Source: a virus. Taken from it: a stretch of 23,875 nt of DNA. A program made the translations under genes and the position numbers. The stretch spans positions 1 through 23,875 of the IMG/VR virus record IMGVR_UViG_3300035698_007032. One strand, given 5' to 3'. Numbering within the stretch: the stretch's first letter is position 1; each line of letters starts with the position of its first letter. Of the stretch, positions 2,048 through 23,874 are shown piece after piece. The notes below the pieces were generated by a model. It searched no databases and was not told the DNA's origin. It saw nothing but the letters and a program-made list of their open reading frames with translations.

Positions 2048-3399
2048 TAACTATACCGCACATGTTTACCCCCAGAGGATACCAGCTAGAGCTGTTTAGA
2101 GCTATGGACGGTGAGCAGGGTAAGCCTGAGACCAAGAAGAAAAGAGCTATCTTAAGATGGCACAGGCGTGCGGGTAAGGATAAAGCTTGTTGGTGCTACT
2201 TAATTAAAGAAGCGGCACAGGTACCAGGTAACTACTTCTATGTGTTCCCGACTAAGACCATGGCTAGACAGGCCCTATGGGAGAATGTCGATAGTTCTGG
2301 TTTTAAGATACTAGATCACGTGCCTACTCAGGTAATTAAAAGACGAAGTAACCAAGAGATGCTTATAGAGTTTACTAATGGTTCTACCATCCGTGTATTG
2401 GGGTATGATAAAGACCCTGATAGTATTCGTGGTATTGCGTGTAGGGGAGCTGTCTTTTCTGAGTTTGCTTTCTCTGACCCAGATTCGTACAGGACAATGA
2501 TACCGGCACTTAGAGAATCTAAGGGTTGGGCTATATTTAACTCCACACCTAATGGTCGTAATCACTTCTGTGACATGTGGAACCAAGTATGTGATAGCCC
2601 CAACTGGTACGCTAGCGCTATACAAACCTATTACCCAGACCAAGACGGCTATAGTGGCCTAGTCCCAATGGCGGACTTTGATGCTATCATGAACGAAGAA
2701 GGCTTGTCTAAAGAGGACGTAGAACGTGAGTATGGAGTATCTTTTAACTCAGGTCTAAAGGGTGCATACTACATAGACCAGGTAGAAAAGGCTTACGCTA
2801 CTAAGCGTATAGGGGACTTTACCTACGATGACACGTACAAAGTGGACACCTATTGGGATTTAGGGGTGGATGATTCGACAGCTATATGGTTTAAACAGAC
2901 CATTGGTAATAAGAAAGTCTTCATTGACTACTTCGAAGAGAGCGGGAAAGACCTACAGTTCTATATTAGGAAGCTAGAAGAGCTTGGATATAACTACGGA
3001 ACTCACCATCTACCGCACGATGCCCGCCAAAGGAACCTACAAACAGGTGTATCTACAGCAGATATGTTTGAAGACATGCTAGATAGGTCAGGAGGCCGAG
3101 GGGATGTGTACGTATTAGACAAGGTAGGGGTCCAATCTGGTATCAATGCTGTCAGGTCTAGATTCTCAACCTATTGTTTTGACAGGGAAAACTGTAGCGT
3201 AGGACTTAAAAAGATAGAACTATACCACAGAAAGTACGACAAAAGACGTCAAGTCTTCATGAAAGACCCTGTCCATGACGGGAACTCTCATGCCGCAGAT
3301 GCTCTCAGAATGGAAGCAATCAGTGAGGGACTACAAACTGATCCGTTCTATGTGGTCAATAACTTGCCTCCAAAGGTCGATTATGATATTTTTGATTAA
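2044..3399 (+). CDS. terL: Terminase large subunit (packaging ATPase/nuclease)
   Basis: This is the motor that drives phage DNA into the prohead and cuts it. With the TTG start the protein is 451 residues, usual for the family. The ATPase part has an adenine-motif-like start (PRGYQLELF, about 10-18), a Walker A of the HRRAGKDK type (about 40-47), and a Walker B with catalytic glutamate in GAVFSEFAF (about 135-143). The C-terminal RNase H-like nuclease part shows TYWDLGVDDST (about 270-279), LPHDARQ, and the closing HAADALR (about 416-422). T7 carries its terminase at the right end of the late region; here it stands before the portal, as in several environmental podoviruses. No small terminase subunit is recognised nearby. 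The start could also be ATG 2062 (445 aa). Confidence 0.95.
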   Translation: MITIPHMFTPRGYQLELFRAMDGEQGKPETKKKRAILRWHRRAGKDKACWCYLIKEAAQVPGNYFYVFPTKTMARQALWENVDSSGFKILDHVPTQVIKRRSNQEMLIEFTNGSTIRVLGYDKDPDSIRGIACRGAVFSEFAFSDPDSYRTMIPALRESKGWAIFNSTPNGRNHFCDMWNQVCDSPNWYASAIQTYYPDQDGYSGLVPMADFDAIMNEEGLSKEDVEREYGVSFNSGLKGAYYIDQVEKAYATKRIGDFTYDDTYKVDTYWDLGVDDSTAIWFKQTIGNKKVFIDYFEESGKDLQFYIRKLEELGYNYGTHHLPHDARQRNLQTGVSTADMFEDMLDRSGGRGDVYVLDKVGVQSGINAVRSRFSTYCFDRENCSVGLKKIELYHRKYDKRRQVFMKDPVHDGNSHAADALRMEAISEGLQTDPFYVVNNLPPKVDYDIFD

Positions 3400-3547
3400 A
3401 TTAATGACGATTTTCGTCCTTTCGGCCTTGATTATTGTGGGAAGCGTGTATATAACTATATATGAACAGGCCCCACTTTGGGAGAGATGTCAGGTTTTTT
3501 TAGTAGGATTTGGAATGTATGTTGGCTTATTATCGCTTTTGTGTTAA
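3383..3547 (+). CDS. Small two-pass membrane protein, 54 aa
   Basis: From ATG 3383 the frame encodes a hydrophobic segment at about residues 2-25 (IFLIKLMTIFVLSALIIVG...), a short polar loop (YEQAPLWERC) and a second segment at about 37-54. Such a two-helix hairpin fits small holins, but the sequence matches no family I know. AAGG (3373-3376) lies 6 bases upstream inside the terminase gene, and the start overlaps the terminase end by 17 bases. ATG 3404 is an alternative start that would shorten the first helix. The 3' end overlaps the next gene by 29 bases. The long overlaps make this call less certain than its neighbours. Confidence 0.5.
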   Translation: MIFLIKLMTIFVLSALIIVGSVYITIYEQAPLWERCQVFLVGFGMYVGLLSLLC

Positions 3548-3788
3548 ATTTGTGTCTACAGTCCATTTGATCCTTATATTTGGAAACTTGCTAGCGGTAC
3601 CCTTCCTGGTTACCCAGACCCCTTTCTACATATGGATGCCAATGATTACAATGTTAGTTTCTCCAGTCTTAGGAGGAGCCTATTGTAGCTTCAACAGATT
3701 AGAAAACCACTTTAGACGTAAAGCTGGAATGCCAGAGATCCATGATAGGATGGCTACACTTCTTTACGGTACTTACAAGCAAAATTAG
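3519..3788 (+). CDS. Two-pass membrane protein, 89 aa, holin candidate
   Basis: The start is set at ATG 3519, 10 bases after AGGA (3505-3508); a TTG at 3510 would lie too close to that site. Two hydrophobic stretches (about residues 13-34 and 41-63) are joined by a short turn with a proline, followed by a basic soluble tail (ENHFRRKAGMPEIHD). Two helices with a charged C-terminal tail resemble class II holins, but no specific family is recognised. The gene lies between the terminase and the pre-portal proteins, on the opposite strand and far from the endolysin. If it is not a holin, it may be an accessory membrane protein of unknown role. Confidence 0.6.
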   Translation: MLAYYRFCVKFVSTVHLILIFGNLLAVPFLVTQTPFYIWMPMITMLVSPVLGGAYCSFNRLENHFRRKAGMPEIHDRMATLLYGTYKQN

Positions 3789-3800
3789 GAGTAACACATT

Positions 3801-4136
3801 ATGGGAGCATTCATAGCCCCAGTATTAGCAGCCGCAGCAGCACCAGGAGCAGCCACACTATTAGGCGGCCTAGGCACGGTAGCTAGTCTAGTAACAGCAA
3901 GCAAGGGCGCGCCATCATCATCCCCTGCACCAGCAGCACCAGCCGCGTTAGCAGCACCTGCAGCACCTGAAGCATCAGTAGCCCCTGAGGCACAAGAAGC
4001 TCCTGTAGCGGACACTGAAGCAGCTAGAGTTAGAGCGATTAAGAGACGTAAGGCCTCAGAAGACACTAATCTATTTTCACTTTCAGGTGAGGATAGTAGC
4101 AGTACTACCCTTACTAAATCTTTGTTAGGAGAATAA
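3801..4136 (+). CDS. Ala/Pro-rich pre-portal virion protein, 111 aa
   Basis: Residues 4-85 are dominated by Ala, Pro and Gly (APVLAAAAAPGAATLLGG and PAPAAPAALAAPAAPEA), so most of the protein is low-complexity and probably disordered. The end has a basic patch (RVRAIKRRKA) and closes with ...TKSLLGE. The next gene has the same plan and ends in SSLLGD, which suggests tandem relatives. In T7, the small ejected or tail-assembly proteins gp6.7 and gp7.3 lie just before the portal and have a similar make-up (disordered body, basic patch, Ser/Gly-rich tail), so this is a likely positional analogue. That is inference; homology cannot be shown by eye. TTAGGAG (3786-3792) precedes the ATG at good spacing. 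Confidence 0.75.
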   Translation: MGAFIAPVLAAAAAPGAATLLGGLGTVASLVTASKGAPSSSPAPAAPAALAAPAAPEASVAPEAQEAPVADTEAARVRAIKRRKASEDTNLFSLSGEDSSSTTLTKSLLGE

Positions 4137-4137
4137 C

Positions 4138-4362
4138 ATGGGCGGATTCATGTCATCACCACCTCCTCCACCACCTGCGCCACCTCCAGTATCAGTGGCA
4201 CCTCCTGTAGAGTCTAAAGCACCAGACGCAGAGACACAGGGTGCAGCAGAAGGCAACAAACCAGTAGCTACAGACACTCGAAGAAAGCGTAGGTCTAAAG
4301 CAGCAACCTTATTGGGCGGCTTAAGCGGCTCAGAAGGCAAATCAAGTTTACTAGGGGACTAA
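4138..4362 (+). CDS. Pro-rich pre-portal virion protein, 74 aa
   Basis: The protein starts MGGFMSSPPPPPPAPPP, followed by a polar, disordered region, a basic cluster (DTRRKRRSKAA, about 46-56) and the C-terminus TLLGGLSGSEGKSSLLGD. The basic cluster followed by a leucine/glycine tail is shared with the preceding protein, and both start MG-x-F. Pro-rich proteins of this plan are common directly before portal genes of the head-to-tail connector family. A role as a minor virion or tail-assembly protein like T7 gp6.7/gp7.3 is inferred. The gene starts one base after the previous stop (TAACATG), and the ribosome site TTAGGAG lies inside the end of that gene. Confidence 0.75.
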   Translation: MGGFMSSPPPPPPAPPPVSVAPPVESKAPDAETQGAAEGNKPVATDTRRKRRSKAATLLGGLSGSEGKSSLLGD

Positions 4363-4370
4363 GTACTTAA

Positions 4371-6014
4371 ATGAATATTGACCCAAAACAGTTACTACAT
4401 AAAGCGCTAGAGTTGTTTGCAACTTCAGAGCGTCAGAACAGTGAAATCGTATGGGACGAGATATCTGAATTCATGCTTAATAACCAAAGCGGCTTATTCC
4501 TCCAGAACGGTGGTGTAGGTACAACATCTTTAATGGCTAACCCTGGTGGCAAGAAGACTAAAAGAATCTTTGACTCAACAGCACTTAAAGCTACACAAGA
4601 TTTAGCAGCAGCCTTCCAAGGCACCTTGACTAACCCAGCGACTACATGGTCTAAGCTTCGCTTCGAAGACGAAGAGCTTAATAATGACGAAGAGTCTACA
4701 GCGTGGTTAGAGCAAGCTAACAAGCTCATGCATAACAAATTTAATGAATCTAACTTCAATGATGAAATGGGTAAGTCTTACCAGTCTCTCTCTAGTCTAG
4801 CTAACATGGCATTGTTCCATGAGCTTAACGATGACGGTGGCTTTCAGTTCACAGCTATACATATTGCACAAGTAGCCTGGATGGAAAACAAAGACGGTAG
4901 AGTAGATACCATTGTACGTAAATTCAACCTCACAGCTAAACAGGCTGTAGAGAAGTGGGGAACAGCAGTTCATCCGGACATAGCTAAAGCTGCTGAAACT
5001 AACCCTAATACAGATTATTCATTCGTTCATTATGTTGGACCTAGAAAGCCTAGCCACGTTAAGCTAAACGCTGTAGGACTAGCTCCAGAACAAGACCGAC
5101 CCTTTGCCAGTTACTACATAGACGAGAGTCATGGTATTATGGTAGAAGAGGGTGGCTATTATGAACTACCAATTTATGTGTCCCGCTGGTCTCTAATGCC
5201 CGGTGAAGTATATGGCAGAGGCCCTGGACACTTAGCTTTACCTGACACACGCACTCTAAACCATTTAAAACGGAGAGGACTCGAGTCAATAGACCTTCAA
5301 GTCCGGCCTCCCATGTTTGCAAATCAGAGAGATGTCGTAGGCCAGCTCAATCTTACTCCCGGTGGTATCTCGGTCGTTAAAGACCATAGAGGCATCAGAG
5401 AGTTTGTATCACAAGCACGCGCCGATATTCTTCAATTTAGTGTTGAAGACTTGAAAGCTTCTATTAAATCTATATTCCATTTAGATCAACTTCTACTGCC
5501 TCCCAGGACTGAAACTGGTGAAATGACAGCTTATGAAGTATCTCAACGTATAGAGCAGATGCAACGCGTACTTGGGCCAACACTCTCAAGACTAAACAAT
5601 GAACTGCTTAACCCTTTGGTTATTCGTGCGTTCAAGATGATGTTAAGAAACGGTGACTTACCTGAGATGCCTGACCTATTGGTCGAGAAGGGTATTGATG
5701 TAGAGATTATCTTTGTTAACCAATTGGCTCGTGCCCAACAGATACAAGACATTAGCTCAATACAACAATGGGTACAGAACATGGCTACACTAGCTCAGTT
5801 CAAGCCAGAAGTATTAGATCTCATAAACGTAGATGGTATAGCTAAACACACTGCTAAGATACTAGGAGTGCCTGAAGTAGCTGTAACCAACAATGACGTA
5901 GTAGAAGAAGTTAGGCAACAAAGAGCACAAGTTCAACAACAACAAGCACAATTAGAACAAGCTAACATGGCAGCAGATACAGCAGCCAAATCAGGAAATT
6001 CTGGAGGGAATTAA
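4371..6014 (+). CDS. Portal protein (head-to-tail connector, T7 gp8-like)
   Basis: The 547-residue protein matches the podoviral head-to-tail connecting family in length (T7 gp8 is 536) and in motifs. It has an early block WDEISEFMLNNQSGLF (about 28-43) and the conserved core YGRGPGHLALPDTRTLN (about 281-297) followed by a basic stretch and QVRPPMFANQ. It forms the dodecameric ring at one capsid vertex through which DNA enters and leaves and to which the tail attaches. The C-terminal 40 residues are Gln/Ala-rich (QQQQAQLEQ), probably a helix or crown extension. The only ribosome site visible before ATG 4371 is the distant AGGGG at 4352, so initiation may depend on coupling to the gene before. 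Confidence 0.93.
   Translation: MNIDPKQLLHKALELFATSERQNSEIVWDEISEFMLNNQSGLFLQNGGVGTTSLMANPGGKKTKRIFDSTALKATQDLAAAFQGTLTNPATTWSKLRFEDEELNNDEESTAWLEQANKLMHNKFNESNFNDEMGKSYQSLSSLANMALFHELNDDGGFQFTAIHIAQVAWMENKDGRVDTIVRKFNLTAKQAVEKWGTAVHPDIAKAAETNPNTDYSFVHYVGPRKPSHVKLNAVGLAPEQDRPFASYYIDESHGIMVEEGGYYELPIYVSRWSLMPGEVYGRGPGHLALPDTRTLNHLKRRGLESIDLQVRPPMFANQRDVVGQLNLTPGGISVVKDHRGIREFVSQARADILQFSVEDLKASIKSIFHLDQLLLPPRTETGEMTAYEVSQRIEQMQRVLGPTLSRLNNELLNPLVIRAFKMMLRNGDLPEMPDLLVEKGIDVEIIFVNQLARAQQIQDISSIQQWVQNMATLAQFKPEVLDLINVDGIAKHTAKILGVPEVAVTNNDVVEEVRQQRAQVQQQQAQLEQANMAADTAAKSGNSGGN
6003..6007 (+). promoter_or_regulatory. Ribosome site GGAGG favouring TTG 6016
   Basis: GGAGG lies 8 bases before TTG 6016 and 14 before ATG 6022, in the same frame. 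Spacing favours the TTG start, adding two residues (MD) to the protein. Confidence 0.5.
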
Positions 6015-9843: not shown

Positions 9844-12800
9844 GTGACTAAACAAATTATAGGACAATCCAGCTTTACGTCCGGAGAGATTAGCCCAAGA
9901 TTATATGCCAGGACAGACACAGACAAATACGCTTCAGGACTGGAAACAGCCACGAACGCAATGATTATCCCTCATGGACCTATGGCCAGACGTAACGGCA
10001 CCAAGTATGTAGCCGAAGTGGCAGACTCATCAGCAGCAGTAGGACTGTTTAAATACCAGTTTAGCCAATCTGTAGCCTTTATATTAGAATTCGGAAATGA
10101 GTACATTAGATTCATTAAAGACTCTGGTCAAGTACTAGAGAGTGCGCTAACTATTACAGGCATTTCAGCAGCCTCAGAAGCCGTAGTAACCAGCAATGGA
10201 CACGGTCTAGCTAATGGGGATCAAGTATACATTACTAGTGTAGTGGGAATGACTGAGGTCAATAACTCTTCTGTCCCTTACTTAGTAGCATCTGTAACCA
10301 CTAACACCTTTAAGATTCAAACCCTGGCAGCTGTAGCCATTGACTCTTCAGCTTTTACTGACTACTCTTCAGCGGGTAGTGTGTTCAAGATATACGAGCT
10401 AGTAAGTCCTTACACTACAGCTCAAATAAAGGACATTCAGATTGTCCAAAGTGGTGCTACAATGTACCTAACTCATCCAGACGTTCCTCCTAAGACATTA
10501 GTACGTACTAGTGATACTAACTGGACAATAGCAACTTTAAGCCTCCTACCCCCGCCAACCTACGAATCCGGTTATGACCCATCACTACCTGCTAGAGCAC
10601 TAGCTACTACAGGTATTGATAAGGAAGTTCTAATCGGAGCCGTAGACTTGACTGGAGGCGCCTATCAGTGGACCGCTTCGGGCTCTGGTACTTCGGAGTA
10701 TTACATGCAACTAGCAGCAGGAGGTGATCCTAGCTTTGCAACTCCAATTACCATAATAGAAAATCTTCTTTCTATACCCGAAGGCACTGTGGGCTCTTTA
10801 TCCGCAGGTGAATGGGACTATGCTGACAATGATTCTTTAGGGTATAGTACAATATACGTTAGACTAACAGACAGTGCTGATCCAGACGCTAAAGCCTCTT
10901 TATTCTTAACAGGCAGCTCGTCCGATATCTTACTAGGTGGCGATGTAGGCAGACAGATAATAGTAGACGCTGGAGGCAGAGCCTCTATAACAGCTATAGT
11001 ATCTGGCGCCTTAGCTACTGTTGATATTATCGAAGACTTCTTAGACACTAGTATAGTAGTCTCAAACACATGGAACATTGATTTATCTCCTGTATGTGAT
11101 TTAGAACTAGATGGCTCACAAGCCGGTGCTATCATTAACATCCGGTCTGAGTACTCCGCTGGTTCATTAGGATCGAGGACTACCATTACTGCCATCACTG
11201 CAGCTAACCCAGGTGTAGTGACTGCCGCAGGGCACGGCCTAGCCAATGGTGAGACCGTACAGCTTCAAGATATCGTGGGTATGACCCAAATAAACAACAA
11301 GACTTTCACGGTCGAAAACGTGTCTACGGACACCTTCGAGCTGAAAGGGGAAAACACTTCTGGCTATACTGCTTATTCCTCCGGCGGTATAGTTAGAAAG
11401 GTCCTCTCTGATGAAGTCCTAGGGGCTTTCAGATCAGCTGACGTGGGCAAGTACATCAAAGCCAATGGCGGTGTGCTTCAAATTATTACAGTAAACTCCT
11501 CGTCTGACGTAGATGCTGAAGTAGTCAAGGGACTTAATAGCTCTGACTCCACAGGTAACTGGACGATAGAAGAGCCTACTTGGAACGCTACTAGGGGATA
11601 CCCCAGGTCAGTAGGCTTCCATGAGCAAAGACTTATCTTTGGCGGGACTGCTACCCAACCTCAAAATCTATGGCTCTCTGAGTCAGCTATCTTTGATGGT
11701 TTCGGTATAGGCCCAGACGATGAAGATTCTATAGAGATTGAACTTGTCAGTAATGAAGTTAACACAATCAGCTGGATGGCCTCTTCTAGAGACTTAGTCA
11801 TCGGCACATCAGGAGGCGAGATCACTGTATCTTCAGGTTCCGGTGCGGCCATGACTCCAGCTACCATACAGCAACGGCCCAGGACCTATCACGGTTCACA
11901 GTCACAGCCTATCGCTAATGTCAAGGATGAGATTCTATTCATTCAGAACTCTAAAAAGAAGATTAGAACCTTTAGATACGATTTTAACATCGATGGCTAT
12001 ACAGGTCAAGATTTAAACTTCATAGCAGAGCACATCACAGAAGGCGGACTAGAGGAACTTATCTACGTTCAAGAGCCAGATCCTACCATATATGCGGTAT
12101 CTACCAACGGTGATTTGATAGTAGGTTCATACGATAGAGCTATTAAGGTCATAGGCTGGACCAGATACACCACAGACGGCAGCTACGAGGCCATACAGAC
12201 GATTTCTACTGATTCTACTGATGTAGTCTTCACTGTAGTTAAGCGTACCGTAGGCGGCGTTACAAGGCGGTATATAGAGAAGTTCATAATCTCAGACGGT
12301 TCAGGAGATACTGACGGTTTTAGTGATTCTTACTTGACTTATAGTGCTCCCTTGACTATAACTAGTATAACGGCCGCAAGTACGGCAGTAGTCACCACAG
12401 ACGGCGCTCATGGCCTCTCAAACGGTGATTCAATTGTACTTAAAGGATTAATTGACCCAGACGCATCCGACATAGACTCTTCCCTGACTAACATGTCAGA
12501 CTTAAATAGGGGAGTATACACGGTAGCTAACAAGACTTCTACCACGTTCGAGCTAACAGGTGTCAATACGAGCACATACAACGGTTATGGTACATTAGGG
12601 TATGTACACGCACGGGTTACCTCATTATCTGGTTTAGACCATTTAGAAGGCAAGTTAGTACAAGTCAAGGTAGACGGAGCAACACACCCCGATAAGACAG
12701 TCTCTTCAGGAGCCATAAGCTTAGATTTCGCAGCAGGGGAAGTAGTAATAGGGCTCAAGTACACGACCACTATTAAGCTTCTCAGCTTAGAGTACAACAC

Positions 12801-13071
12801 ACAGATAGGGTCAGGATTGGGACAAAGAGCTAGATGGTCAAAACCACAGTTACAAGTCTACAAATCTACCAAACCTTTAGTGAACGGTGAGTACATACCT
12901 TCACGTTCAGGAGCTAATAGGATGGGGCAGAGAGTTCCACTATACAGCGGCTTCCTAGAATACGGTTCATTAGCTTGGGGCAATTCTCCGGCATTGACTA
13001 TCGCAGTTTCGGACCCACTACCTTTGGTGTTAATCGGAGTAACGGGAACCATTAACTCTGGGGTTAAGTAG
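9844..13071 (+). CDS. Tail tubular protein B / nozzle (T7 gp12-like) with three inserted repeat domains
   Basis: The N-terminus (GQSSFTSGEISPRLYARTDTD, in two parts, then GLETATNAMIIPHGPMARRNG) is the signature of gp12-like nozzle proteins in environmental podoviruses. At 1075 residues it is longer than T7 gp12 (794). The excess is partly three related modules at about 101-180, 444-518 and 837-925. Each has ITxIxAAxxxVVTxxxHGLxNGDxV, a second block ending in TTxTFELxG, and a Gly/Tyr-rich close. They resemble the FCCH-like beta domains of Ubiquitin-activating enzyme E1 that are common in phage tail proteins. The protein forms the distal tail tube and probably contacts fibres. The start is GTG 9844, with GAGGT (9833-9837) upstream. 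It is followed by a 92-base gap. Confidence 0.9.
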   Translation: MTKQIIGQSSFTSGEISPRLYARTDTDKYASGLETATNAMIIPHGPMARRNGTKYVAEVADSSAAVGLFKYQFSQSVAFILEFGNEYIRFIKDSGQVLESALTITGISAASEAVVTSNGHGLANGDQVYITSVVGMTEVNNSSVPYLVASVTTNTFKIQTLAAVAIDSSAFTDYSSAGSVFKIYELVSPYTTAQIKDIQIVQSGATMYLTHPDVPPKTLVRTSDTNWTIATLSLLPPPTYESGYDPSLPARALATTGIDKEVLIGAVDLTGGAYQWTASGSGTSEYYMQLAAGGDPSFATPITIIENLLSIPEGTVGSLSAGEWDYADNDSLGYSTIYVRLTDSADPDAKASLFLTGSSSDILLGGDVGRQIIVDAGGRASITAIVSGALATVDIIEDFLDTSIVVSNTWNIDLSPVCDLELDGSQAGAIINIRSEYSAGSLGSRTTITAITAANPGVVTAAGHGLANGETVQLQDIVGMTQINNKTFTVENVSTDTFELKGENTSGYTAYSSGGIVRKVLSDEVLGAFRSADVGKYIKANGGVLQIITVNSSSDVDAEVVKGLNSSDSTGNWTIEEPTWNATRGYPRSVGFHEQRLIFGGTATQPQNLWLSESAIFDGFGIGPDDEDSIEIELVSNEVNTISWMASSRDLVIGTSGGEITVSSGSGAAMTPATIQQRPRTYHGSQSQPIANVKDEILFIQNSKKKIRTFRYDFNIDGYTGQDLNFIAEHITEGGLEELIYVQEPDPTIYAVSTNGDLIVGSYDRAIKVIGWTRYTTDGSYEAIQTISTDSTDVVFTVVKRTVGGVTRRYIEKFIISDGSGDTDGFSDSYLTYSAPLTITSITAASTAVVTTDGAHGLSNGDSIVLKGLIDPDASDIDSSLTNMSDLNRGVYTVANKTSTTFELTGVNTSTYNGYGTLGYVHARVTSLSGLDHLEGKLVQVKVDGATHPDKTVSSGAISLDFAAGEVVIGLKYTTTIKLLSLEYNTQIGSGLGQRARWSKPQLQVYKSTKPLVNGEYIPSRSGANRMGQRVPLYSGFLEYGSLAWGNSPALTIAVSDPLPLVLIGVTGTINSGVK

Positions 13072-18936: not shown

Positions 18937-20031
18937 ATGACAATTTCAAGCGTATACGAACCAGACACATACTCAGGCGACGGGTCCCTAACCACCTTTG
19001 CCATAACTTTTGCATACTTAAGTGTGAGTACAAACATTAAGGTGTCAGTTAAAAATAACACTACTGACGTTATCACATTAAAGACTGCATCTTCACACTA
19101 TAACGTAGTTGGGTCTAACGTCGTCTTCACCGGAGGTAATATACCTGCGTCAGGAGAGACCGTCATTATAGAGTTAAGCCCAGATTTCACACAAGATTCT
19201 GATTACACTGAAAATAGTGTGTTTCCAGCCGAGACTTTAGAGTCTGACTTAGATGAACGCTGCTTAGAATCTCAGATTAATAAAGATAAACAGGGTAGAG
19301 CATTTAAATTAGATTCTTCAGTATCTTTATCCGGCAAGGTCCTGGAAATAGGGCTACCCTCCAGCGGTACTAAGTACCTCACGGTATCCCCTACGGGATT
19401 GACAACGGCCACTATTGGAACCTTTGACGAAGTGCCTCTACCTTTAAGCCTAGCTAATGGTGGACTAGGAGTATCTCTTTCTGACCCAGGTGCGGATAGT
19501 CTACTTATATGGGACGATTCAGCTGGCGAGTCTGCACACTTAACCCCTGCATCAGGATCAGATAAAATTGCTTTCTATGATGACTCTGCTAGCAGCCTAG
19601 GGTTCCTAACTGTAGGTGCTAACCTAACCCTTTCCGGTACTGTACTGACAGCAGACTCTCAGGTACCGGACCAAGACGAGTCTATAGTTATAGCATGTAG
19701 TAGTGAGATGGCTGCTTTAATTGCAGCTACATCGGTTGCCACATTCAGAATGCCTTTCGCCATGACCTTAACGGCAGTGAGAGCTAGTGTAGGTACAGCC
19801 CCTACTGATGCAAACATAATAGTTGACATCAACGAAGCTGGCACTACTATTTTAAGCACTAAACTTAGTATTGACGCCTCAGAAAAAACATCTAGCTCAG
19901 CGGCAGTAGCGGCAGTCATCAGTGACGCAGCTTTAGCAGACGATGCTGAAATCACCATTGACTTAGACCAGGTAGGTAGTACTGTGGCAGGAGCAGGGTT
20001 GAAAGTAACCCTAATTGGAACAAGAACATAA
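18937..20031 (+). CDS. Tail fibre protein with T7 gp17-like N-terminus, 364 aa
   Basis: The first 130 residues match the T7 gp17 N-terminal domain that fixes the fibre to the tail: YEPDTYSGDGSLTTFAITFAYL in two parts, SHYNVVGSNVVFTGG, PASGETVIIELSP, and DLDERCLESQINKDKQGRAF, in which T7 has a similar L-x-x-x-E block before the rod. The middle (about 140-240) has repeats of Leu/Gly/Ser. The C-terminus (about 245-364) resembles a beta-type fibre module seen in many phages (TFRMPFAMTLTAVRASVGTA; DDAEITIDLDQVGSTVAGAG). The fibre is shorter than T7 gp17 (553), and the next gene probably supplies the receptor-binding tip. GAGAG (18926-18930) lies before ATG 18937. Confidence 0.9.
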   Translation: MTISSVYEPDTYSGDGSLTTFAITFAYLSVSTNIKVSVKNNTTDVITLKTASSHYNVVGSNVVFTGGNIPASGETVIIELSPDFTQDSDYTENSVFPAETLESDLDERCLESQINKDKQGRAFKLDSSVSLSGKVLEIGLPSSGTKYLTVSPTGLTTATIGTFDEVPLPLSLANGGLGVSLSDPGADSLLIWDDSAGESAHLTPASGSDKIAFYDDSASSLGFLTVGANLTLSGTVLTADSQVPDQDESIVIACSSEMAALIAATSVATFRMPFAMTLTAVRASVGTAPTDANIIVDINEAGTTILSTKLSIDASEKTSSSAAVAAVISDAALADDAEITIDLDQVGSTVAGAGLKVTLIGTRT

Positions 20032-20041
20032 GGTACATGTA

Positions 20042-20869
20042 ATGTCAATATTCATTAATGCATACACATACGGAAATATAAACGCCACAGGCGGTACTAA
20101 AACCACTTCAGGCGATTACACTATTCATACCTTTACGTCATCTGGCACGTTCACTATAAGCTCAGGATCCGGAGTGCTAGACTACTTAATAGTAGGCGGT
20201 GGTGCTGGTGGCAGTAGTAATAACGGAGGTGGCGGTGGCGGAGCTGGTGTTGTCTTTGGTAGCACAGGCGGTACAGTTACAGAATACTCAATCACGGTAG
20301 GAGCCGGAGGAGCAGGCCAAATATCAGGCGCAGGCTCTCCAGGCTCTGGTGCAGACGGAAGCGCTAGCTCGGCGTTCGGCCTCACAGCTGGTGGAGGAGG
20401 TGGCGGTGGCTCACCCAACGGACTAGCCGGAGAAGACGGTAACGCTACTAACGGTTCTGCCGGTGGTGGTGGCGGTAAAGGTGCTGGTGCTGGTGGTACC
20501 GGAGATGGTGCTGGAGGAGACGGCGGTAACGGTGTCCTAGGCACAGCATCTGGAGCAGGTGGTGGCGGTGGCTACGGCTCGAACGGATCTAACGGTACTA
20601 CCTCAAAAGGTGGCGATGGGGGCGAAGGTTACGACTCTTCAATTTCAGGATCTTCTAATATATATGGCTCTGGAGGCGGAGGTGGTGCTATTTCAGGTAC
20701 TCAATCTGCAGGCGGCACTAATGCAGGGAACGGCGGGAACACTTCTGCAGGGTCCACAGCAGCAACGGACGGCTTTGGCGGCGGCGGAGGCGGCGGTGGC
20801 AATAACGGAGAATCAGCTGGGACCACAGACGGCGGCGATGGAACTGTTATTATAAGATATTTAACTTAA
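20042..20869 (+). CDS. Glycine-rich adhesin / receptor-binding tail protein, 275 aa
   Basis: Start ATG 20042 with AAGGT (20030-20034) 7 bases upstream. The N-terminal part ends in TFTSSGTFTISSGSGVLDYL (about 35-54), the entry to the phage glycine-rich domain family (IVGGGAGG follows). Residues 56-262 are mostly Gly, with Ser, Asn, Thr and Ala, in runs such as GGGGGGAG and GGGGGGG. The end DGTVIIRYLT is the usual closing strand. Glycine-rich stretches of this type form a sandwich of polyglycine II helices in the gp38 adhesins of T4-like phages, where the loops between Gly runs bind the receptor. The gene directly follows the fibre, so a host-recognition role is likely. The loops would be the variable part. 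Confidence 0.8.
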   Translation: MSIFINAYTYGNINATGGTKTTSGDYTIHTFTSSGTFTISSGSGVLDYLIVGGGAGGSSNNGGGGGGAGVVFGSTGGTVTEYSITVGAGGAGQISGAGSPGSGADGSASSAFGLTAGGGGGGGSPNGLAGEDGNATNGSAGGGGGKGAGAGGTGDGAGGDGGNGVLGTASGAGGGGGYGSNGSNGTTSKGGDGGEGYDSSISGSSNIYGSGGGGGAISGTQSAGGTNAGNGGNTSAGSTAATDGFGGGGGGGGNNGESAGTTDGGDGTVIIRYLT

Positions 20870-21481: not shown

Positions 21482-21922
21482 CTAAGAGTAATCTTCTTCG
21501 TCTAAGAACAGAGCGCGTTCAGCCCTTCTGCGCCTTGCTAGGCCTGCTAGAACATTCCCTCCAGCTTTATTCCATCTTAGGAGTTCCCAAGCTGCACCCG
21601 TGTAGTCTCCCATATTAAGTTTCTTCCTTAATGTAGACATTCTCAGGTTCCTAGCTCCAAGGTTATAGGTGAAGCTAACTAGAGCATCAAACTGACCCTG
21701 TGTCAGAGGCACCGAGAAGGCTCTAAGCACCTCACCCTCTACCCTCATCAAGTCCATCTCTAAAAGATTCCCAGCGACCTCTAAGGTTATCAGCTGTCCC
21801 TCTTTAACCATGGCAGTATGACCATACCCTATAGTCAACACGCCAGCAGGGCACTTATATGCCTTTAATCTAACACCTTCAAAGTGTTTAATCAGTGCTA
21901 TTCCTTTATTAGATATACGCAT
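21482..21922 (-). CDS. Endolysin: GH24-type lysozyme (muramidase), 146 aa
   Basis: It cuts the beta-1,4 bond between N-acetylmuramic acid and N-acetylglucosamine at the end of infection. The catalytic block is clear: KHFEG..LKAYKCPAGVLTIGYGHT, with Glu15, Cys24 and Thr30. This is the E-8aa-D/C-5aa-T layout of family GH24, with Cys in place of the T4 Asp. The C-terminal part (QFDALVSFTYNLGARNL and LARRRRAERALF) is also typical. There is no signal peptide or SAR-type N-terminal helix, so a holin is needed for release. It is the last gene of the minus-strand operon and overlaps the start of the previous gene's end by 14 bases. Confidence 0.95.
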   Translation of the reverse strand: MRISNKGIALIKHFEGVRLKAYKCPAGVLTIGYGHTAMVKEGQLITLEVAGNLLEMDLMRVEGEVLRAFSVPLTQGQFDALVSFTYNLGARNLRMSTLRKKLNMGDYTGAAWELLRWNKAGGNVLAGLARRRRAERALFLDEEDYS

Positions 21923-22307
21923 TGACGCCTCCAGGCAGTTGGTCTATCACTTCTTGAGGCCACATCTTAAGAGGATCTAGGTAGTGCACCTCAATGCCCA
22001 GCTCTTTAGCCCATTCTATCTCATCTAACACCCCAACGGAATCATCCCAACCAGGTAGTGTAAGTACAATAATCCCGTCTGATATTGATATGAAATTCCG
22101 ATCTCTAGCTTTCCAGAAGGCATAACCTCCAGGTAGCTCGTGCCTTAAGGACTGCTCATGGCACATAGCAATGGGTTCAATCAAAGTATGCCCCATCTTA
22201 GTCAGCATAGAACCAGTGTATATCACCGCTTCATATCTAAACTGTTTAATAAACGTGTTGTCATGACTATACGGTGATGCTAAGTAGTACAGTTTGTTCT
22301 TGTCCAT
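21909..22307 (-). CDS. DUF1937-family protein, nucleoside deoxyribosyltransferase-like, 132 aa
   Basis: The start YYLASPYSH (7-15), the middle GHTLIEPIAMCH, and ISDGIIVLTLPGWDDSVGVL followed by DEIEWAKE (75-102) are the pattern of DUF1937, related in fold to nucleoside 2-deoxyribosyltransferases. Those enzymes use a Glu in an EI motif as nucleophile, matching Glu96 here (D-S-x-G-x-x-D-E-I), and Asp77 in ISDG would be in the active site. Reaction and substrate are unknown; a role in base exchange or nucleotide salvage is inferred. It overlaps the endolysin by 14 bases and the upstream shorter relative by one base. Together with the nucleotide hydrolase-like gene it suggests a nucleotide-metabolism cassette. 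Confidence 0.8.
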   Translation of the reverse strand: MDKNKLYYLASPYSHDNTFIKQFRYEAVIYTGSMLTKMGHTLIEPIAMCHEQSLRHELPGGYAFWKARDRNFISISDGIIVLTLPGWDDSVGVLDEIEWAKELGIEVHYLDPLKMWPQEVIDQLPGGVNAYI

Positions 22308-22579
22308 TATTCATCCCCCCAAGGATTATCCATGGCTGCCCATGGTTCATGTGCTATCAGGTACATACACGTACCATGTCGTTTAAAGGTTTTCTCCATA
22401 GCCCTTAGAATCATTGGACTCTCAGACCACCCTGGAAAGGCAGGGATGATAACACCCCAATACTCCCCTTCAGGTTCTCCTACCGCTACTTCATAGCCTT
22501 GCTTCTCGAACCCACTTACTAGTTGTTCAGCATAGTTACCGAAAGGCGTTACTATAAAGACTTTATTTTTTGAAAACAT
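22307..22579 (-). CDS. Short deoxyribosyltransferase-like protein, 90 aa, possibly inactive
   Basis: No named family is recognised, but it parallels its DUF1937 neighbour. SKNKVFIVTPFG at the start corresponds to DKNKLYYLASPYS, and VIIPAFPGWSESPMILRAME (43-62) to GIIVLTLPGWDDSVGVLDEI. The equivalent of the putative catalytic Glu is missing (RAM instead of DEI), and the helical middle part is shorter. The likely reading is a tandem relative that keeps the fold but not the chemistry, perhaps a partner subunit, or a distinct small Rossmann-like protein. GAGGAT lies about 8 bases before ATG (22579-22577). It overlaps the upstream gene end by 17 bases and the DUF1937 start by one base. Confidence 0.7.
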   Translation of the reverse strand: MFSKNKVFIVTPFGNYAEQLVSGFEKQGYEVAVGEPEGEYWGVIIPAFPGWSESPMILRAMEKTFKRHGTCMYLIAHEPWAAMDNPWGDE

Positions 22580-22859
22580 TTAGTTTATCCTCATCACTCA
22601 TAGCCCCTTCCAGACCTCGCACTACTAGCGTATACTCCATTAAGCATCGAGCGGCTGCGTGTAGTAATGGGTGTAGTCCAGACTCGTGGTCTTCCTCTAT
22701 CCCTGAGTAAGATTCTGCCACATGCCTAAAAATAGACGCGTGGTTGTCTCTGTGGTTAAAGTGTTTCCCCTCTAACCAGCTGTTTTCTCCGTACTTTTCA
22801 GCTCCCATCTCTAGGACCTTTGCTACATGTGTGAATTCCTCTGGGTACTCTATGCTCAT
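22563..22859 (-). CDS. dATP/dGTP diphosphohydrolase-like protein (DUF5664/MazZ-type domain), 98 aa
   Basis: The core KYGENSWLEGKHFNHRDNHA (about 22-41) followed by IFRHVAES..GIEEDHESGLHPLLHAAARCLMEYTL matches, as I recall it, the phage domain annotated as the N-terminal part of dATP/dGTP diphosphohydrolases. Such enzymes cut deoxynucleoside triphosphates to monophosphates. The acidic EEDHESG and the His residues would bind metal ions. In 2-aminoadenine phages a MazZ enzyme of a related type supplies dGMP, but no purZ is present here, so modified DNA is not shown. Start ATG 22859 is chosen over GTG 22868 because AGAGG (22872-22868) lies 7-8 bases upstream. Alternative: all-alpha NTP pyrophosphatase of unknown substrate. 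Confidence 0.75.
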   Translation of the reverse strand: MSIEYPEEFTHVAKVLEMGAEKYGENSWLEGKHFNHRDNHASIFRHVAESYSGIEEDHESGLHPLLHAAARCLMEYTLVVRGLEGAMSDEDKLNVFKK

Positions 22860-22870
22860 TGGCAACACCT

Positions 22871-23803
22871 CTATACGTTAATGCTTAATTCAAAGAGTTG
22901 GTCCTTAATGGTTGTAGACAATGCAGCCTGCAACCCTCTAGCCCCTGTTTTATTGTTTATGCATGTTTCTATTATAGTAGATTCGTCATCAGAAGTCAAT
23001 TGCAAGTACTTACCTGAAGCTGTAAACATCTCGTGGTAGTCTGGCAATACAAACCTATGGAACACATCCGTTAGTTCTGCCTTGTTTAGAGACGTTAGTT
23101 CTGCTACATCACTAAGTCTACCTACTATCTGTGTAGCTACACCAGCTTTATCTAGTTCTTGGATGAAACTAATCTGCTCCTCTGGGACACCTCCTTTGGT
23201 TTCGGGGTCTCTAAACCCCATACTAGGTTTAACTCTAGCTACTCTATCTGCCCTCACTTCAGCAAAGTTACCTGCTAAGATAAACAGCATATCATGAGTA
23301 GGAGCACGCTGGCCTGGTGCAAAGAACGCTCCCTCTATACCTTTAAGCAAGTTATACTGTGTGTTCCTATTGTGGTCAGTTCCTTCCCTTCCTATTGCCG
23401 GAGAGGCTAGCTTATCGAACTCATCTAAGAAGACTACGGTGGACCTAAACTTTAAAGTATCCCCCATCTCCTTGTAATGGTCCTCTATACACTTGGAAAA
23501 GTCTTGTCCTGCCCAACCTGCACTAGTAAGCTCAGTACAGTCGAGCTCTAGCATAGGACATATGTCATAGCCTAGTATCTGTTGCACCGCCTCACAGGCT
23601 AAGTGGGTAAGGTACGTTTTACCGCACCCCGTCGGTCCCATTAGCAGTAGGTTGTGCTTCTTTATCGGAGTATTCTCTTTCTCTTGTTCCAACAATCTCA
23701 ATACATGTAAGAACATCGCAGTGGACACTGATTTTTTAGCTTCATCTTGACCTACTATACGTTCATCTAAGTAGTCGTAGATCTGTCCTGGAGAGATTTT
23801 CAT
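22871..23803 (-). CDS. ClpX-like AAA+ ATPase / unfoldase, 310 aa
   Basis: All core AAA+ motifs are present: IVGQDEAKK (16-24), Walker A GPTGCGKT (56-63), pore loop GWAG (96-99, where ClpX has GYVG), Walker B VVFLDE (123-128), a sensor-1 region LAGNF (176-180), an arginine finger in IVGRL (226-230), and sensor 2 KTGARGL (285-291, Arg289). The zinc-binding N-domain of ClpX is absent, hence 310 rather than about 424 residues. MGF (195-197) stands where ClpX has the IGF loop that docks on ClpP. The protein probably forms a hexamer that unfolds proteins, alone or with host ClpP. No phage clpP is in the window. AAGGAG (23816-23811) precedes the ATG. Confidence 0.92.
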   Translation of the reverse strand: MKISPGQIYDYLDERIVGQDEAKKSVSTAMFLHVLRLLEQEKENTPIKKHNLLLMGPTGCGKTYLTHLACEAVQQILGYDICPMLELDCTELTSAGWAGQDFSKCIEDHYKEMGDTLKFRSTVVFLDEFDKLASPAIGREGTDHNRNTQYNLLKGIEGAFFAPGQRAPTHDMLFILAGNFAEVRADRVARVKPSMGFRDPETKGGVPEEQISFIQELDKAGVATQIVGRLSDVAELTSLNKAELTDVFHRFVLPDYHEMFTASGKYLQLTSDDESTIIETCINNKTGARGLQAALSTTIKDQLFELSINV

Positions 23804-23805
23804 AT

Positions 23806-23874
23806 TTAGCTCCTTAGTTTTTTGTTCTTACTAGTTATTGTATGCTTACCTGCGTAACCACCATGGTCTTTACA
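23806..23874 (-). CDS. C-terminal end of an unidentified gene (partial)
   Basis: An open frame enters from the right edge on the minus strand and ends at TAA 23808-23806, two bases before the ClpX-like start, giving 22 residues (CKDHGGYAGKHTIT and a Lys-rich end). The tight spacing, and the ribosome site of the next gene inside its end, fit the operon style here. A second frame is also open to the edge but stops earlier (about 23835), so the call is uncertain. No family is recognised. Confidence 0.4.
   Translation of the reverse strand, partial: CKDHGGYAGKHTITSKNKKLRS

Follow-up and report, generated by a model that had tools for sequence, protein, structure and literature searches.

A reduced ClpX-like unfoldase in a podophage clade, a candidate motor of a phage-encoded chambered protease

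In cells, the pairing of AAA+ motors with chambered peptidases is nearly fixed, ClpX working with ClpP and HslU with HslV, and ClpX itself is also able to remodel without ClpP. Phage-encoded ClpX and ClpP are already known from jumbo phages: full-length ClpX is found in Bacillus phage G (gp258), Agrobacterium phage Atu_ph07, the Pseudomonas phage Callisto/PA5oct group, and the Lak phages, and clpP adjoins clpX in phage G (gp257-258) and in Acinetobacter phage MD-2021a. A group of short phage ClpX-like ATPases (249-281 aa), encoded mostly in early or replication gene regions, includes those of the Schitoviridae phages DEV and Philippe, Demerecviridae phage Stubb, Queuovirinae R7M and Vibrio phage 1.207.B, and Tenacibaculum phage Gundel. 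HslV is likewise known in phages (PMC7823757).

The locus described here lies in a viral window of 23,875 nucleotides (the whole stretch of DNA that was analyzed) and encodes a ClpX-like protein comparable to each of these systems. With E. coli ClpX (b0438) it shares the AAA+ core with all motifs and a docking tripeptide at the same column, but it is only about 27-33% identical to ClpX, has no zinc-binding domain, carries GWAG in place of GYVG, has a shortened RKH loop and a shorter C-terminus, and falls in a separate clade. It resembles jumbo-phage ClpX as a phage-encoded ClpX-type motor with an [IMLVF]GF loop; unlike it, jumbo-phage ClpX keeps the zinc domain and groups with cellular ClpX. 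The short phage proteins share its lack of a zinc domain, but their whole ClpP-docking loop is deleted and they form another clade with 100/100 support. HslU belongs to the same AAA+ family, and HslV-like peptidase genes lie near the clpX-like genes of relatives of our protein; in contrast to HslU, however, the protein has no I-domain and possesses a ClpP-type loop, and HslU lies outside the family clade. Judged from alignments and trees, what is new is a distinct clade, in podophages, that lacks the zinc domain yet retains the docking loop. Our preferred reading, which we rate slightly better than even, is that this protein serves as the ATPase motor of a phage-encoded chambered protease.

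Sequence and motifs of the ClpX-like protein

The gene occupies positions 22871..23803 on the minus strand and encodes 310 aa from an ATG start. ClpX was its best match in curated and structural sequence libraries, at scores well under the ClpX cut-offs: solved ClpX chains matched the product with E values down to 6e-28, PHROG 4339 matched at 1e-42, and the NCBIfam ClpX model matched at 2.7e-40, under that model's cut-off. Against the curated ClpX models TIGR00382 and NF003745, the protein scored 119 and 138.5 bits, below both cut-offs (371 and 359, respectively). Going by these ClpX-library matches and by homologues at 43-30% identity in other phages, the open reading frame is a real gene; judged by the defining features of ClpX, its product would work like ClpX but is not a ClpX orthologue.

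Alignments and the structural model revealed a complete ClpX-type AAA+ module, comprising Walker A (GPTGCGKT, residues 56-63, 23615..23638), Walker B (VVFLDE, residues 123-128, 23420..23437), the arginine finger box (GRL, residues 228-230, with GR at 228-229; 23114..23122), and sensor 2 (TGARG, residues 286-290, with GAR at 287-289; 22934..22948), all on the minus strand. The original prediction, made from the sequence alone, had claimed retention of all ATPase motifs, loss of the zinc-binding adaptor domain, and a GWAG pore loop, and each of these claims was borne out. Residue 1 of the protein aligns with ClpX residue ~63, and the N-terminal zinc-binding domain is not present. Because an in-frame TAA lies 27 nt upstream of the ATG, with a Shine-Dalgarno sequence (AAGGAG, 23810..23815, minus strand) between them, no zinc domain is hidden upstream, and a misannotated start masking such a domain is thereby excluded.

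Pore loop 1 (GWAG, residues 96-99, 23507..23518, minus strand) keeps the aromatic residue of the ClpX GYVG loop as W and changes V to A; the corresponding loop in the relatives reads GWSG, GWEG, GWVG, GWAG, or GYVG. The RKH loop, responsible for ssrA recognition in ClpX, is shortened in the alignment and has no RKH. Since the zinc domain is lost and the RKH loop is shortened, what is known of ClpX suggests substrates other than adaptor-delivered or ssrA-tagged ones; the protein would thus recognize substrates of its own, with the usual ClpX adaptors and the ssrA tag not used in the standard way. No insertion of the HslU I-domain type follows pore loop 1, which sets the protein apart from HslU.

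Phage relatives and the MGF loop

Seven distinct relatives (L094, L095, L096, L097, L098, L318 in contig G038, and L337), at 30-43% identity, were recovered by alignment-driven and motif-driven scans of viral contigs, a single-sequence search being insufficient; L096 is the same phage as L319 and L329. A scan for the GWAG motif returned 69 loci, none of them a relative of the window protein, and the best 80 matches of a genome-contig scan were all ClpX-type loci at 28-33% identity, none of them closer. The relatives come from podophage-type contigs, and the portal of these podophages is nearest to those of HTVC010P-type pelagiphages and Vibrio phages, at about 34% identity. All seven lack the zinc domain. 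The gene at L337:11933-13216 encodes a ClpX-like protein with an acidic C-terminal extension of ~100 residues that is absent from the other members.

In a tree built without L337, the window protein and its relatives formed one clade apart from cellular ClpX, jumbo-phage ClpX, and the short phage ClpX-like proteins. With L337 included, the family clade held at 100/99, and its inner branching gave no resolved clades of HslV or ClpP carriers. The window protein, whose nearest relative is L094, falls outside the cellular ClpX clade, at a deep position that long branches render unsure. Membership in the loop-less short phage group was ruled out by the tree and by the presence of the loop.

The MGF tripeptide (residues 195-197, 23213..23221, minus strand) lies 33 residues before the GRL at 228. 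It had been placed near the IGF of ClpX in the original prediction, and in the alignment it coincides exactly with the IGF column of the E. coli protein. In a single-chain AlphaFold model (mean pLDDT 89.8, built with 33 sequences), MGF belongs to a loop of low confidence that joins helices 181-191 and 208-219, where ClpX has its flexible IGF loop. All best Foldseek matches shown for this model were ClpX. VIA-align returned ClpX chains from ClpXP complexes (Z 28.8, rmsd 4.1, 294 residues), the likeness to the ClpX fold spanning Z 24-29 over most of the chain, with HslU reaching Z up to 25.

Conservation within the family bears on the same loop. Only 37 of the 310 columns are invariant in the eight-member alignment (the window protein and its seven relatives), and within the 29-residue segment 186-214 the sole invariant residues are G196 and F197; the [MIL]GF tripeptide is kept in all eight members. 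Its retention while the proteins diverge to 30% identity points to selection, and a loop conserved throughout the family supports docking to a ClpP-class peptidase. Together, the alignment position, the flexible loop of the model, and the invariant G and F uphold the docking-loop reading of MGF as a prediction from sequence and modeling. Gamma-proteobacteria use IGF as the docking tripeptide, and MGF or LGF can take its place in other phyla (PMC9753991); MGF also occurs in the full-length ClpX of Pseudomonas phage Callisto. As a natural variant already on record, MGF by itself is not novel.

The loop also weighs on the idea that the protein is a stand-alone remodeler, dismantling phage or host complexes without a peptidase. 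The ability of ClpX to remodel without ClpP favors this idea, as does the loss of the ClpP loop from other short phage ClpX-like proteins, which presumably act otherwise, and no peptidase gene was found in the window. However, a tripeptide kept in 8/8 members would be needless for a pure remodeler and the relatives carry peptidase genes, leaving this the least supported of the explanations we weighed and, in our estimate, a very improbable one.

Peptidase genes and gene order

The early region was covered in six relatives (L094, L095, L096/L329, L097, L098, and L337), and every one of them encodes at least one ClpP- or HslV-type peptidase; neither the contig of L318 nor the window reaches this region. 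Canonical ClpP is encoded in L095 and L097. In L095 its gene begins 4 nt short of the end of the clpX-like gene, so that the two overlap, and the diphosphohydrolase gene known from the window comes next; in L097 the ClpP gene lies 3.2 kb downstream of the clpX-like gene. The two ClpP proteins are 68 and 72% identical to E. coli ClpP and keep the catalytic triad S97/H122/D171. Most positions of their docking pocket are kept or conservatively changed; counting against docking are changes at F112 (to Y/N), Y60 (to H/A), and I90 (to T/L).

The other four phages (L094, L096/L329, L098, and L337) encode an HslV-like threonine peptidase matching phrog_1040 at 1.6e-11 to 5e-17. These proteins have an N-terminal Thr, and an Asp and a Lys fall on or beside the columns of HslV Asp17 and Lys33; the Thr, Asp, and Lys columns are invariant. 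The model of the L096 protein adopts the fold of HslV as found in HslUV (Z 18.0, rmsd 3.4, 166 aligned residues); Pfam PF00227 gave no match to the HslV-like proteins of the relatives, whereas phrog_1040 and the fold do match. Within the available sequence, canonical ClpP and HslV-like genes never occur in the same phage. The four HslV-like carriers and L095 also encode a ClpP-like protein (phrog_1827) whose N-terminus bears a hydrophobic segment and which is predicted to be membrane-anchored. Beside it in L098, upstream of the ClpX-like gene, a second and different ClpP-like protein with a signal-like N-terminus is encoded at 2997-3584. SbmA/BacA-like membrane proteins (PF05992, 2.5e-6 to 4.6e-12) are encoded in three HslV-carrying relatives, at L098:6424-7296, L326:12578-13399, and L329:11786-12619 (minus strand), and in two of these the gene adjoins that of the ClpP-like protein with the membrane segment. 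To our knowledge, a phage-encoded transporter of this peptide-uptake type is unusual.

In L094, L096, and L337, genes follow the order HslV-like, RusA, exonuclease, clpX-like, diphosphohydrolase, with the HslV-like gene 1.3-1.9 kb upstream of the clpX-like gene. Upstream of the ClpX-like gene, the contig of the window runs for only 72 bp before it stops inside the conserved exonuclease gene. The cut gene (23806..23874, minus strand), separated from the ClpX-like gene by 2 nt, retains the C-terminus CKDHGGYAGKHTITSKNKKLRS, up to its stop, of an RNase H/PolB-exonuclease-like protein. This stretch matches the exonuclease C-terminus of L094, where the exonuclease-like gene directly precedes the ClpX-like gene, with 11/22 residues identical; its alignment score of 62 exceeded those of all 500 shuffles, which reached no more than 43. 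On the strength of this match, the order exonuclease, ClpX-like, diphosphohydrolase is common to the window, L094, L096, and L337; L097 has the same order too, with an exonuclease C-terminus that does not match that of the window.

Downstream, at a distance of 2 nt, lies a dATP/dGTP diphosphohydrolase-like gene (22563..22868, minus strand; PF18909, 1.3e-16), which by gene-order comparison is kept in the neighborhood of the ClpX-like gene in six of the seven relatives. It is followed by a DUF1937/nucleoside 2-deoxyribosyltransferase-like gene (21909..22307, minus strand; PF09152, phrog_355), whose place in the cluster is conserved in L094, L097, and L337, and, at the end of the cluster, by a phage lysozyme (endolysin; 21482..21922, minus strand; PF00959, 3.5e-46). 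The ClpX-like gene is on the strand opposite to the virion genes; its placement next to nucleotide genes and not among virion genes was thus correctly foreseen. Two further proteins of the window deserve mention. A 1075-aa tail protein (9844-13071) contains two E1_FCCH-type repeats (PF16190, 1.6e-27), a domain that takes its name from ubiquitin-activating enzymes, and a very glycine-rich protein of 284 aa (20015-20869) encoded downstream of the tail genes is possibly a tail-tip or receptor-binding adhesin.

Two claims of the original prediction fared less well against this gene order. The protein had been called stand-alone, but the contig breaks off 72 bp upstream of its gene and the relatives encode their own ClpP, or HslV-like together with ClpP-like proteins. 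Redirection of host ClpP had also been proposed, and it is not the best reading, since close relatives encode their own peptidases and the window stops at the place expected for such a gene. The prediction had further looked to the full genome for clpP. A ClpP search of the whole record gave no match, an absence of little weight, since the record spans nothing beyond the 23,875-base window, a genome fragment.

Candidate roles of the motor

As the motor of a phage-encoded protease, the protein would be a ClpX-type AAA+ unfoldase cut down to the core motor and probably assembling as a hexamer. Six MGF loops would dock on a ClpP-class chambered peptidase, and pore loops containing W would pull substrates in, feeding the unfolded proteins to the peptidase for presumed degradation. 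The phage AAA+ protease would be expressed in an operon with DNA-processing genes, and the peptidase gene would be expected just past the contig end, as carried by relatives. For this phage itself, the peptidase partner is inferred from relatives sharing 30-43% identity, as the window, a fragment, contains no peptidase gene; peptidase carriage in the relatives is suggestive, coming from few, related, and partial genomes of one phage group that are not independent. The setting among DNA-processing and nucleotide genes suggests an early action, either in removing host proteins or in regulating replication proteins, and host takeover by proteolysis is plausible.

The best supported of the rival explanations holds that the protein docks on host ClpP as a phage motor with new specificity, redirecting the host barrel. 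The conserved MGF loop favors it, MGF being a natural docking tripeptide (PMC9753991), as does the lack of a peptidase gene in the window, and modulation of a host Clp protease by phages is known, for example from SPO1 Gp53, which acts on ClpCP (PMC6873191). Nevertheless, with ClpP- or HslV-type peptidases encoded by 6/6 covered relatives and the window cut where such genes lie, we regard the use of host ClpP as unlikely.

Next in support is a pairing with the phage HslV-like threonine peptidase, in which the protein would replace HslU and make contact through the MGF loop or its short hydrophobic C-terminus, which ends in LSINV. Each of the four distinct phages in which this HslV-like type was detected encodes the ClpX-like protein as well, three of them in the same gene order, and the window, whose nearest relative is the HslV-like carrier L094, preserves the exonuclease, clpX-like, diphosphohydrolase part of that order. 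The presence of an HslV-like chambered peptidase in four relatives counts against our preferred reading, as HslV in HslUV is docked by the C-terminus of the ATPase and not by an IGF loop (PMC4106860), so that the loop may serve either partner there. However, C-termini vary among the HslV carriers, the window protein has a ClpP-type loop but no HslU I-domain, a ClpP-like protein is encoded by these phages as well, and no HslV-like gene was seen in the window. We therefore consider this pairing rather improbable.

A wider proposal is that small podophages keep one ClpX-type motor and swap its peptidase, either canonical ClpP or an HslV/proteasome-type enzyme, which would yield a hybrid ClpX-like/HslV-like protease; we put it forward as doubtful. 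We know of no such hybrid from cells. No paper on a phage system of one motor with either peptidase was found in the open literature searched, subscription journals and preprints lying outside that search. If true, a phage clade in which one reduced motor serves either peptidase would be a natural test of pair exchange, and small phages, besides jumbo phages, would be seen to supply the host cell with an ATP-dependent protease of their own. A phage-encoded chambered protease of the HslUV type was also observed in Cronobacter phage CR5 (L023), where the gene at 2980-5043 encodes a 687-aa HslU-like protein containing a large insertion and an HslV gene lies 2.3 kb upstream, at 173-676.
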